A DNA stretch of 64,000 bases from Streptomyces sp. B21-105 (GTDB lineage Bacteria > Actinomycetota > Actinomycetes > Streptomycetales > Streptomycetaceae), in contig NZ_JARUMJ010000001.1 of assembly GCF_036898465.1 (NCBI RefSeq), forward strand, positions 5,394,001-5,458,000, given 5' to 3'. A model generated the notes under the pieces. The model made no database searches. It had not been told where the DNA came from and saw only the letters and a program-made list of their open reading frames with translations. Position 1 is the stretch's first letter. Every line of letters begins with the position of its first letter. The position numbers were made by a program, and so were the translations under genes. Shown one piece after another: positions 31,274-37,167 of the stretch.

Positions 31274-31346
31274 TTCCGCAGGTCGGCTCGCACGTCTACC
31301 TGCGCGCGAAGCTGGACTCCATCACCGTCGGCTGAACTCCGCCCGC

Positions 31347-31429
31347 GTTTCCGGCCGGAAACACCTGTCCCCTACCGCGACTCCTGTTTCCACCTGCGGA
31401 AACAGTCGGTGTTTCCGTTCCGCAACACC
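31347..31429. promoter_or_regulatory. Cluster of three inverted repeats sharing GTTTCC/GGAAAC
   Basis: Site 1 is a perfect 16-base palindrome, gtttccggccggaaac (31347-31362). Site 2 has perfect 8-base arms ctgtttcc / ggaaacag (31384-31391, 31398-31405). Site 3 pairs ggtgtt / aacacc (31408-31413, 31424-31429) around a tttccgttcc core. Sites 1 and 2 are centred exactly 40 bases apart, sites 2 and 3 exactly 24. They precede the 58-residue membrane protein and the HTH-kinase gene, so they are strong candidates for operators. Confidence 0.65.
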
Positions 31430-31480
31430 CTTGGTCCTCGCCACGCTTGAGCACATGTCGAGGCATCCAAGGAGGCTGTC

Positions 31481-31657
31481 GTGAACCGTACGTTGCTGAC
31501 CACTCGCTCGGCCCTGATCTTCCTGCTCGCGGTCCTGTGTGGCATCGGCGCGGGCGTCCTGACCGGGTTGACCGGGCCGAGCACCGCACAGGCCGTCCTG
31601 ACGGGTGCGGCAGGCTTCGGGCTCGCAGTGCCGTTCTTCAACAGCCTCATCGACTGA
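31481..31657 (+). CDS. 58-residue small membrane protein
   Basis: GTG at 31481, with GGAGG 5-9 bases upstream, opens a 58-residue frame (VNRTLLTTRSALIFLLAVL, then CGIGAGVLTG, ending VPFFNSLID). Two hydrophobic helices (about 10-27 and 38-54) with a short polar turn make a hairpin membrane protein. It is the first gene after the inverted-repeat cluster and ends 26 bases before the HTH-kinase start, so the two are almost certainly co-transcribed. I know no function for it; it could recruit the soluble kinase to the membrane. Confidence 0.7.
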   Translation: MNRTLLTTRSALIFLLAVLCGIGAGVLTGLTGPSTAQAVLTGAAGFGLAVPFFNSLID

Positions 31658-31683
31658 CCCTGGAGGTGGAAGGGGCGCAGGCG

Positions 31684-33570
31684 GTGGGAATCAATGACGA
31701 CCAGGGACACGGAGAGGCGGGACGGTCTGTGGGGGAGCAGGGGTTCGACGACGGGGAGCCGTCCTTCGGCGACGTGGAGCACCTCAAGGGCTTCCAGTCC
31801 TTGCGGCCCGACCTTTCGCAGGAGACACGGGACCTGGTTCTCGCGATGCGTGGCCTTTTCAAGGCGACGCGGCTGAGTCTGCGTGTGTTCGCCGCTCGCC
31901 ATCATTTCAGCGCGCCTTCGGTCTCCCGCTACCTCAAGGGTGACCGCATTCCCGACAAGCAGTTCCTCGACGTCCTCATGAAGTCGGCCTGCGAGCGGAA
32001 CGGGTGGGAGGTCACCGCCGATCTGCAGGCACATCTGTATCAGCGGTACCGCGAGGCCCTGATGGCCGATCAGCCCGCCCGGTGCCGAGAGCAGATGGCG
32101 AGCGACAGGCTGGAGGACGCGGTGCTGAGGCAGGAGGACGCCGAACTGCGCATCCACGACCTCGAAGGGAACCTGTCCCGCCACAGGGAACAGCTGGACG
32201 GGCTCAGGACGCGTATGAAGGAGCTCGAAGCCGCCTGCGCGCTGGAGCAGCGGGAGCTCGGCTCAGAGCTGGACCTGTACCGCCGTCAAAAGGCCGATCT
32301 CGAAGTCCGCGGCGAGCACCTGCGCGAGACGATCGCGGAACTGGAGGCGGCGCTCGCCGAAGCGGTCCGGGAACGCGATGCGGCGAGGGCGCGCTGTGGG
32401 GAACTGGAGGCGGAGCTCGTCGCCGTCGAGGAGTCGGCGGACCGCGAACGGCTGGAGAGGCGCGTCGCCGAGGAACGTCTGCGGGTGGCGAAAGCGGAGG
32501 GTGCCGCCGCAGAGCGTCGCGTGGACCTCGAACGGGCCAAGCGGGACGCCGAGCGGCTGCGCCTGGAGGCGGAGGCCCAGGCCAGAGAGATCATCGAAGA
32601 GGCCAACAACAGGGTGACCAGGATCCGGCCCTCGGTCGTCACCAGGTCGGCAGCACTGCGCCAGCTGCGGGACGCGGCACTCGAGGTCGCCGACGTCAGG
32701 CTGCCCGCAATGGTCGAGGGGATCTCCCCAGCCGACTCGGCCGACGTCGTCAGCACGGTCAAGCCGATCGGCATCCAGACCAAGGACGAGATCGGGGAGG
32801 TCGCCCGGGCATTCGACCGGCTCCATCTTCAGGCGGTTCGTATCGCCGCCGAGCAAGCGTCGCTCCGCGCGGTTTTCGGCGGTATGGCCCGTCGACAGAA
32901 GGCCTTCATCGAAGCGCAGCTGGATTTGGTCTTCCGACTGCGTCGCCCGGACTCGGACGCCGGCCAGCTGGAGGGGCTCTTCCGCCTGAACCACTTGGCC
33001 GCCCGTCTGGGGCGCATCAGCGAGACCCTCCAGCTTCTCGCCGGCGGCGTGCCCGACCGATACGGGGACCGGGGCGTCCGCCTTGCCGACGTGTTCCGCG
33101 CCGCCTCCTTCGAGGTGGAACAGTACGAGCGCTTCGATCTGTCCGGTCTTCCGGAAGTCGAGATCCGCGGCGTCGCCGCGAGCGGCCTTGTCCACCTGTT
33201 GGCCGAGTTGCTGGAGAACGCCGCCACGTTCTCCTCGCCGAAGACCGAGGTCCGTGTCACCGGCTACCTGCTGCCCGACGGCCGTGTCCTGCTGGAGATC
33301 CACGACCAGGGATGCGGCCTGACTCTCGAGGACTTTGGCGACGTCAACGCGCGGCTTGCCGACCTGCGGGCAGCTCCGGACGCCGGGACCTCCGAGCGCA
33401 TGGGCCTCTTCGTGGTGCGTCGCATCTGCGAACTGTACGGTTTCCGGGTCCAGCTACGTCCCTCCGACCGGGGCGGCGTCACCGCCCTGATCATGCTGTC
33501 GCTCCAGCACGTCAACCGCGACCGCCCGGACACTCACGACACCGGCGCCTGGAGCCCGGACATCGCGTAG
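31684..33570 (+). CDS. HTH-coiled-coil-CvnA-like histidine kinase fusion
   Basis: A 628-residue soluble protein. Residues about 45-105 resemble an XRE-type helix-turn-helix (LSLRVFAARHHFSAPSVSRY then LKGDRIP). Residues about 135-315 are a long Glu/Arg-rich coiled coil. From about 340 it follows the cytoplasmic half of conservon CvnA sensor kinases: HAMP-like TKDEIGEVARAFDRLH (366-381), LFRLNHLAARLGR (432-444, H437), N box HLLAELLENAATFSSP (504-519), G1 EIHDQGCGLTLEDF (538-551) and RMGLFVVRRI (572-581). The membrane sensor part of CvnA is missing, and no cvnB-C-D genes follow. The GTG at 31684 has GGAAGGGG upstream; GTG 31666 is an alternative. An autoregulated DNA-binding kinase is inferred. 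Confidence 0.8.
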   Translation: MGINDDQGHGEAGRSVGEQGFDDGEPSFGDVEHLKGFQSLRPDLSQETRDLVLAMRGLFKATRLSLRVFAARHHFSAPSVSRYLKGDRIPDKQFLDVLMKSACERNGWEVTADLQAHLYQRYREALMADQPARCREQMASDRLEDAVLRQEDAELRIHDLEGNLSRHREQLDGLRTRMKELEAACALEQRELGSELDLYRRQKADLEVRGEHLRETIAELEAALAEAVRERDAARARCGELEAELVAVEESADRERLERRVAEERLRVAKAEGAAAERRVDLERAKRDAERLRLEAEAQAREIIEEANNRVTRIRPSVVTRSAALRQLRDAALEVADVRLPAMVEGISPADSADVVSTVKPIGIQTKDEIGEVARAFDRLHLQAVRIAAEQASLRAVFGGMARRQKAFIEAQLDLVFRLRRPDSDAGQLEGLFRLNHLAARLGRISETLQLLAGGVPDRYGDRGVRLADVFRAASFEVEQYERFDLSGLPEVEIRGVAASGLVHLLAELLENAATFSSPKTEVRVTGYLLPDGRVLLEIHDQGCGLTLEDFGDVNARLADLRAAPDAGTSERMGLFVVRRICELYGFRVQLRPSDRGGVTALIMLSLQHVNRDRPDTHDTGAWSPDIA

Positions 33571-33725: not shown

Positions 33726-33953
33726 ATGGCGCGAACAGTCATCGACGTGGACGACGAAATGCTCGCCGAGGCGGCCGAGATCTTCGGGACGACGACCAAG
33801 GTCGCGACGGTCAACGCCGCTCTGGAGGATGCGGTCAACCGCAGGAAGCGGGCGTCCTTCCTGGGCTGGCTGGCGGAGGGCGGCCTGCCTGATCTGACCG
33901 GTCCGGTCAGTGCCTCGGGCAAGCCGCACGGGGCCGCCGGGACCGCGGACTGA
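33726..33953 (+). CDS. VapB-type antitoxin without adjacent toxin
   Basis: A 75-residue protein starting MARTVIDVDDEMLAEAAEIF, the ribbon-helix-helix N-terminus of the VapB (DUF2191) antitoxin family, with TTKVATVNAALEDAVNRRKR completing the fold. The C-terminal FLGWLAEGGLPDL region is where VapB grips a VapC PIN toxin. No VapC follows: the next gene is on the opposite strand 16 bases away. The ATG at 33726 has GGGGAGG 6 bases upstream. It is either a solitary regulator or the relic of a lost toxin-antitoxin pair. Confidence 0.82.
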   Translation: MARTVIDVDDEMLAEAAEIFGTTTKVATVNAALEDAVNRRKRASFLGWLAEGGLPDLTGPVSASGKPHGAAGTAD

Positions 33954-35922: not shown

Positions 35923-37167
35923 CTAAAGGACGGGGATTCCTGGCTCACGTTGGCTGGGGATCAGCGATCCGCCAGCTCTTACACGATCAACACCAGCCGG
36001 GTCGAGACCAGCCCGGACCAGCATCACGCGTGCGGAGTTCTTGTCCCTGGGGGATACGACTCCGCACGCGGTGCAGGTGTAGGTACGTTCCGAAAGAGGA
36101 AGTGCGTGCTTGGTTCTCGCTCCGCACGACGCGCGGTCCATGGTGGTGTGCGCGGGATGCACGAGGCGGATGTCCCGCCCGTGCTTGCGGCCCATCTCGA
36201 TCAGGGCCGTCTTCGTGGCGCCGATCGCCGCGTCAGCGGCCTTGCGGGCCATGGTGGTCTTCGCGAGGAACTTCGGGCGGAAGTCCTCGACGGCGATGGC
36301 GTCGTGGTCGAGGACCACGCGCTTGGCCCACTTGCGGGCGGTGTCCTGCCGCTGCCGGGCCGCCTTCTTGTGCACCTTCGCGGCCTGCGGCCGGGCTTGC
36401 CGGTAGCCCTTGGAGGCGGCCTGTCCCCTGGCGGGGCGGCGGCGGGCCATCATCCGCTGGTAGCAGGCGCGGCGCTGCGCCGACTTCTTGCCGTGCCCGG
36501 CGTGGGGAAGATCGTGGGCGTCGGATGTGGTGGTGGCGGTCTCCTTGACGCCCCAGTCCACGCCGAGCACTCGCCCCGTCTCCGGGAGCGGCTGCGCCTG
36601 GGTGGCGACGACGAACGAGGCGTACCAGTGGCCGAGGCTGTCCTGGTACACGCGAACGCTCGACGGCGCGGACGGCAGGTCGCGGGACCACACCACCGCC
36701 AGCACGATCCCGCCCGCGACGTGCAGGCGGCCGTCCTTCAACCGGAAGCCACGGGCGGTGTAGTTCAGCGTGGGCAGCGCGTCCCGCTTGCGCTTGATGC
36801 GGGGCATCCCGGCACGCTGCCGGACCGGAAGCTTCGCCTTGATGTCCTTGAGCGCCTTGGCACGGGACTTGGCGAAGTCGCGGATGGTCTGCTGCTGCGG
36901 CACCGACGCGCCCTCACGCAGCCAGGCCATCACGCCCCGAGCCTCGGTCAGCATCCTGTCGAGCTGCGCCGGGCCGCACGTCGTCTTCTCGGCGGCATCC
37001 CGGTTCGCGGCGTGGACCTTGCGGGACATGGCCACGCACTCGTTCCACACCCACCGGCAGCGCGCCCACTCGGCCGACAAGCTGGCGCGGGCGGTCGACG
37101 ACACGCGGAGCCGGTAGGTGTACCGGGCGCACCCCGTACCCTCCGCGCCTTCCTGTCGTGCCGTCAT
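35923..37167 (-). CDS. tnpB: TnpB, RNA-guided nuclease of IS605 family
   Basis: A 414-residue TnpB (OrfB). The N-terminal HTH-like domain (FAKSRAKALKDIKAKL) precedes the beta-barrel (FRLKDGRLHVAG). RuvC-like motifs are GVDWGVKET (D204), IAVEDF (E294) and PRDKNSARVML (D375). The zinc ribbon reads DRASCGARTKHALP then TCTACG; relatives usually have CxxC at the first half (DCxxCGART), so R345 stands where a zinc-ligand Cys is expected. A guide RNA would be encoded over the 3' end towards 35910, where the hairpin lies. TAGAAT (37179-37174) ends 7 bases before the ATG, predicting a leaderless message. Confidence 0.9.
   Translation of the reverse strand: MTARQEGAEGTGCARYTYRLRVSSTARASLSAEWARCRWVWNECVAMSRKVHAANRDAAEKTTCGPAQLDRMLTEARGVMAWLREGASVPQQQTIRDFAKSRAKALKDIKAKLPVRQRAGMPRIKRKRDALPTLNYTARGFRLKDGRLHVAGGIVLAVVWSRDLPSAPSSVRVYQDSLGHWYASFVVATQAQPLPETGRVLGVDWGVKETATTTSDAHDLPHAGHGKKSAQRRACYQRMMARRRPARGQAASKGYRQARPQAAKVHKKAARQRQDTARKWAKRVVLDHDAIAVEDFRPKFLAKTTMARKAADAAIGATKTALIEMGRKHGRDIRLVHPAHTTMDRASCGARTKHALPLSERTYTCTACGVVSPRDKNSARVMLVRAGLDPAGVDRVRAGGSLIPSQREPGIPVL

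Follow-up and report, generated by a model that had tools for sequence, protein, structure and literature searches.

The window analyzed here, 64,000 nucleotides of the Streptomyces sp. B21-105 genome, contains a gene for a CvnA-type kinase fused to an XRE-type helix-turn-helix (HTH) head and a long coiled coil. A gene for a small membrane protein, the microprotein, is located upstream of it, and operator-like palindromes precede both. The best overall explanation, to which we give an even chance, is an autoregulated operon of a DNA-binding CvnA-type kinase and a microprotein. The domains and the conserved promoter sites are established by sequence and comparison. The architecture appears to be a new combination of known parts, a CvnA-type kinase and an XRE head.

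The plus strand is open without interruption from 31447 to 33570. A sequence-only reading of the window had proposed a single fused frame of 628 residues, which corresponds to translation from GTG 31684. The fused frame is upheld, with HTH, coiled coil and HATPase all inside it, and its length is corrected. The start is more likely GTG 31729, giving 613 residues, because this codon (MGEQGF...) aligns with the starts in two other genomes, G301 (VGDDE) and G033 (VGDDD), and a purine-rich stretch lies immediately 5' of it. The features of the gene are given below; residue numbers in the text refer to the 628-residue form.

31729 to 33570, plus strand: HTH-coiled-coil-CvnA-type kinase, 613 residues, or 628 with GTG 31684
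31819 to 32001, plus strand: XRE-type helix-turn-helix, from the HTH_31 family, a structure model and fold matches
32077 to 32628, plus strand: coiled coil (proline-free stretch), from the residues without proline and the full-length model
32656 to 32823, plus strand: HAMP-like stretch below the cut-off, from Pfam
32992 to 32994, plus strand: codon of the conserved DHp histidine, from alignment; H437 in the 628-residue form, H422 in the 613-residue form
33181 to 33504, plus strand: HATPase_c domain, from Pfam

The HTH had been placed at about residues 45-105, with structure prediction named as a check. Of five single-sequence AlphaFold2 models, the best (mean pLDDT 84; 57-65 for the other four) contains helices at residues 46-61, 66-72, 77-85 and 92-106, and fold matches agree with an XRE (Cro/CI) helix-turn-helix. 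The window head alone falls below the Pfam HTH_31 cut-off (E 2.4e-4; 21.8 bits, cut-off 27); HTH_31 is matched at E up to 0.1 by 44 of the 47 head-family members that were aligned. The prediction of an HTH is borne out by these results. The coiled coil behind it, expected to span some 180 residues, is about 200 residues long. It is free of proline over residues 132-315 and is 45% charged across 119-315, and the full-length model shows it as long helices with high pLDDT.

The same head is joined in the genus to receiver, kinase, DnaA-like AAA+, NB-ARC (with TPR) and other C-terminal modules. Our comparison covers 101 regions (the window, L072-L091 and L122-L201), a chosen subset of the listed matches, and 71 head frames. 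Classes were taken from clustering and from Pfam scans that covered 21 of these frames, the window's own apart; the class label "trypsin-like" was assigned by reading, with no Pfam hit.

Three palindromes are found in the promoter, all upstream of the microprotein gene.

31347 to 31362, no strand assigned: operator-like palindrome 1, GTTTCCGGCCGGAAAC, GTTTCC-N4-GGAAAC, shared with G301 and also with G033, where the two arms carry matching changes
31386 to 31403, no strand assigned: operator-like palindrome 2, GTTTCCACCTGCGGAAAC, GTTTCC-N6-GGAAAC, from sequence and comparison
31408 to 31429, no strand assigned: operator-like imperfect palindrome 3, GGTGTTTCCGTTCCGCAACACC, from sequence and comparison

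A 45-bp block at 31385-31429 is identical at 43 of 45 positions in G301 and at 42 of 45 in a third genome, G018. The G018 head protein is 49% identical to the window head and the genes there are divergent, yet the block is kept. G033 has two of the palindromes in the form GTTCCC/GGGAAC, their arms altered in concert. As controls we used 227 upstream regions of other genes at the same loci (head promoters 245-350 bp, controls 250 bp; means scaled, with-or-without counts unscaled). Spaced half-site pairs are found with all four kinase-type heads (window, G301, G033 and the kinase-less G018) and in 22 of 227 controls; since family members are related, p-values for k-mer enrichment, for class linkage and for the contrast between microprotein promoters given below overstate. 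All 25 receiver promoters contain [CG]CAAC[AG], with a mean of 3.5 per 250 bp against 0.30 in controls, and GCAGCAC is present in 6/6 promoters of one class against about 5% of controls.

The half-sites also differ between the genes that they precede. Upstream of microprotein genes, [CG]CAAC[AG] is found in 20 of 21 cases with a neighboring head gene and in 7 of 37 without one (245-bp stretches throughout). Judged from this contrast, the promoter half-site goes with the HTH gene, not with the small gene. The recognition region varies by class as well: HFSAPSVSRYL in the window, AYDSSTVSRYL-like in the GCAGCAC class and RDPGTFSRYL-like in the receiver class. Half-site variants appear to follow the HTH subgroup, with the recognition region differing in step. 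If the HTH instead served to dock a protein, like that of the bacterial RodZ-MreB complex, the promoter sites would belong to another regulator. Sites that track the HTH gene rather than the small gene, in variants that go along with the HTH subgroup, make this improbable. The conserved operator-like sites make DNA binding by the head, jointly with autoregulation, probable.

GTTTCC-N2-8-GGAAAC occurs at 11 places genome-wide. Six have one sequence, and the five of these that were checked all lie within ribosomal RNA loci; two are in the window promoter and three elsewhere. From this distribution, regulation is expected to be mainly local, that is, autoregulation.

The microprotein gene is the second component.

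31481 to 31657, plus strand: gene for the small membrane protein, 58 residues, from hydrophobicity and homologues

The sequence-only reading described a tiny two-helix membrane protein encoded upstream. The gene and its homologues support this, but the two hydrophobic segments are unequal, the first strong (mean Kyte-Doolittle 2.46) and the second weak (1.59). Homologues with the same head and the small gene upstream, for which that reading had suggested a search, were found in G301 and G033; in G018 the small gene is divergent. In total, microprotein homologues adjoin 21 of 71 head frames, 19 directly upstream and 2 divergent. By class, the neighbor is present in 15/25 receiver, 3/3 close kinase-type and 0/2 distant kinase-type frames and in 1/22 of four other classes; these counts, the basis of a Fisher test, were entered by hand for 52 of the 71 frames, and omit 19 unclassed ones including the linked L073 (G018) and L085. 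In a tree of 57 microprotein copies the head-linked ones cluster, with 4 changes against 17.3 in shuffles (0/500 as low); the tree is weakly resolved, and near-copies contribute to its clustering signal.

The kinase part is of the CvnA type, as first read. HATPase_c is matched at a Pfam E of 1.9e-12. The window protein retains the DHp histidine (within LNHLAARL), the N box, DQGCG and MGLFVV when 20 kinase parts, ten paralogues from the same genome (G000) among them, are aligned, and the histidine aligns also in G301 and G033. Residues 321-606 are most closely related to CvnA-type kinases from within the genus, at up to 58% identity. The HAMP-like part named in the sequence-only reading was matched, but at 18.1 bits, under the Pfam cut-off of 25 (PF00672). 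That the kinase has no membrane sensor was confirmed in that no transmembrane segment was found (highest 19-residue Kyte-Doolittle mean 1.33) and no NIT-type sensory domain was matched in Pfam at E up to 0.1. Pfam likewise gave no match to a receiver domain in the chain.

The window protein is a CvnA-type kinase standing outside any conservon. The nearest DUF742, which we take to be the CvnC marker, is 0.8 Mb from the kinase, whereas 9 of the 10 other, paralogous kinase places have one within 2.3 kb; DUF742 is present at 11 places in the genome. The claim that partner genes are absent beside the kinase also holds: no cvn family, DUF742 included, was found by Pfam among the scanned neighboring frames, cvnBCD did not appear as constant partners (cvnB and cvnD were not sought genome-wide), and eight neighboring frames gave no match to a CvnE (P450) or CvnF (GAF) accessory. 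The genome contains a second orphan CvnA-type kinase (G000:C1:1351842-1353137, L004), which is membrane-type and has no DUF742 nearby. In the portion of the published account available to us (PMC13343842), CvnA kinases without a sensory domain are accompanied by CvnE or CvnF accessories, CvnA8 autophosphorylates with H183 needed, and the conservon components phosphorylated by CvnA8 are stated as unknown. By analogy, the head, coiled coil and microprotein may stand in for the CvnE/CvnF accessories here.

Replacement of the sensor by a DNA-binding-like domain was part of the sequence-only reading and stands; rather than a one-off swap, the window protein is one case of a modular family. In four frames of more than 1000 residues (L075, L076, L077 and L187), the head is followed by other modules. 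Among the three scanned, NB-ARC is above the cut-off in L076 and L187, the latter also with TIR, and both domains are below it in L075. These large NB-ARC head proteins are possibly of an immunity-receptor type. L079, L081, L082 and L083 combine the head with a DnaA-like AAA+ ATPase and the DnaA C-terminal HTH (Pfam on L079, the rest by clustering).

Receiver, DnaA-like AAA+ and NB-ARC domains are conformational or oligomerization switches. Their occurrence behind the same head would suit a one-component regulator, like the receiver members, in which DHp and HATPase do not donate phosphate but act as a dimer switch, powered by ATP, through which DNA binding is tuned in cis. The lack of a partner gene among the scanned neighboring frames and of part of the DHp in G301 would suit it too. 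We consider it unlikely, since the histidine and ATP motifs are retained in the window protein, the histidine is aligned in G301 and G033, and the relative CvnA8, although outside our alignment, autophosphorylates and requires H183 in the part of PMC13343842 at hand.

Strong head orthologues (E up to 1e-44) are present in at least 4 of 295 genus genomes, the window's own and the kinase-less G018 included; genome counts are lower bounds, with about 11 to 21 first-look candidates scored per genome. A separate gene for the N-terminal part, which the sequence-only reading had named as evidence against its architecture, was not seen in the three close relatives, G018 having a head without a kinase domain. 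Placing the five HTH-kinases on the tree built from 20 kinase parts takes 2 changes (2-3 across bootstrap trees, with 1 in 0/200), and the starred branches alone are compatible with a single origin of the fusion. The G033 kinase match starts after the HAMP-like part (query position 62 on), which the window and G301 keep. Because the tree needs 2 changes and the G033 junction differs, there is moderate support for at least two fusions of the head to CvnA kinases.

Several observations weigh against the autoregulated operon. The nearest relative, G013 (96.5% identity to the window over about 1 kb downstream), has lost head and coiled coil together with most of the kinase; its locus keeps the promoter sites, and the first codons of the small gene are fused to the C-terminal part of the kinase, leaving a 98-residue remnant. 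The system is thus dispensable in G013 and patchy overall. Spaced half-site pairs are present in 8/25 receiver promoters, 0/6 of the GCAGCAC class and 0/2 distant kinase members. The sites are not uniform: GCAACA is found in 5/16 of the mixed class "other" and 2/6 of the GCAGCAC class, and GGAAACA is missing in G033 and the two distant kinase members. In G301 the kinase is without part of its DHp region, and the full-length model has very low confidence across the kinase part. Finally, 37 of 58 sampled microprotein copies have no HTH-coiled-coil gene within 1 kb.

The patchy distribution and the G013 remnant would also fit an incidental fusion in decay, with no selected function. This is very improbable, as the frame, most catalytic motifs and the promoter sites are shared by the window's genome and G301, and the head was probably fused to CvnA kinases on more than one occasion.

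The 37 unlinked copies bear on the pairing itself. Pairing of kinase and microprotein, as first proposed, is kept in 3/3 close members, but the microprotein also accompanies receiver members and these 37 places. A small membrane gene beside a DNA-binding protein, with palindromes in front, resembles a toxin-antitoxin pair in which the HTH protein would be the autoregulating partner of a harmful membrane protein. The many copies without such a neighbor argue against this, as does the lack of a match of either protein to a toxin or antitoxin family, and we hold it to be quite improbable. Neighbors of the unlinked copies include a decarboxylase-like gene (10 copies, named by reading) and a SpoIIE-type phosphatase gene (4 copies; L138 checked by Pfam), among others. 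Seven lie divergently to a gene whose product has a terminal part like sigma region 4: at L158 (3776-4630) this part matches sigma-70 region 4/ECF sigma models in Pfam, and six loci are similar. These loci may be a second pairing of the microprotein with a DNA-binding-like protein.

Other genes lie around these two. Before the promoter sites, 31274-31335 holds the 3' end of a 2OG-Fe(II) oxygenase-like gene, the rest of which is missing; it is complete in G301 (L072 8889-9854; Pfam) and G013 (L253 1089-2108, by reading). A VapB-type antitoxin gene (33726-33953, plus strand; Pfam 3.4e-11) has no toxin gene seen directly beside it. An IS605 OrfB/TnpB-like gene (35923-37167, minus strand) lies between genes for UbiD and for a UbiA-type prenyltransferase.

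We propose that the microprotein and the kinase are encoded in a single operon under autoregulation. In it, the kinase's XRE-type HTH would bind the repeated GTTTCC/GGAAAC half-sites at 31347-31429 and so control its own operon. The coiled coil would fix the spacing of two heads and link them to DHp/HATPase, a connection through which kinase state and DNA occupancy could influence one another; such coupling is tentative, at somewhat less than an even chance. The microprotein would be made together with the kinase as its partner. It could supply an anchor or a sensor to a kinase that has no membrane sensor itself, or it could be the regulated output. Its physical contact with the kinase is about as tentative, and its role as a tether and signaling by the kinase to a target are hypotheses. 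More doubtful is the full picture, in which the kinase itself reads the operators of its own promoter as their regulator and is held at the membrane by the microprotein, within a genus-bound plug-in family that combines head and half-site with receiver, kinase, DnaA-like, NB-ARC-TPR and other modules.

A CvnA-type kinase that is detached from the G-protein module, carries a DNA-reading head and has candidate operators offers a small, testable system. Receiver and kinase members carry related microproteins, which opens a test of a shared membrane step. The family suggests an evolutionary route in which the promoter-reading head and half-site are retained and the signal module is exchanged. Among the papers listed from the open PMC literature, which leaves aside subscription papers and preprints outside it, we recognized none describing this architecture or the HTH-coiled-coil family; HTH-coiled-coil-receiver features in plasmid records are named "response regulator" or "hypothetical protein".

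Compared to conservon CvnA kinases, the window protein has a similar DHp/HATPase, with the conserved histidine and the identity given above, and lacks the NIT sensor, as do some published CvnA (NIT is in most, not all). Unlike them, it has no transmembrane segment and no DUF742 nearby, carries an N-terminal HTH and coiled coil, and has a microprotein gene instead of CvnE/CvnF. The Streptomyces HTH-coiled-coil-receiver proteins share the head, the following coiled coil, related half-sites and, in the 15 of 25 cases noted, the upstream small membrane gene. They end in a receiver, whereas the window protein ends in a kinase, and their half-sites are GCAACA rather than GGAAACA. Bacteroides hybrid two-component systems, as described in the accessible part of PMC11253607, also place a kinase and a DNA-binding regulator within one polypeptide. 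Theirs is a membrane sensor kinase joined to a response regulator in one chain, whereas the window protein has neither receiver nor membrane sensor.
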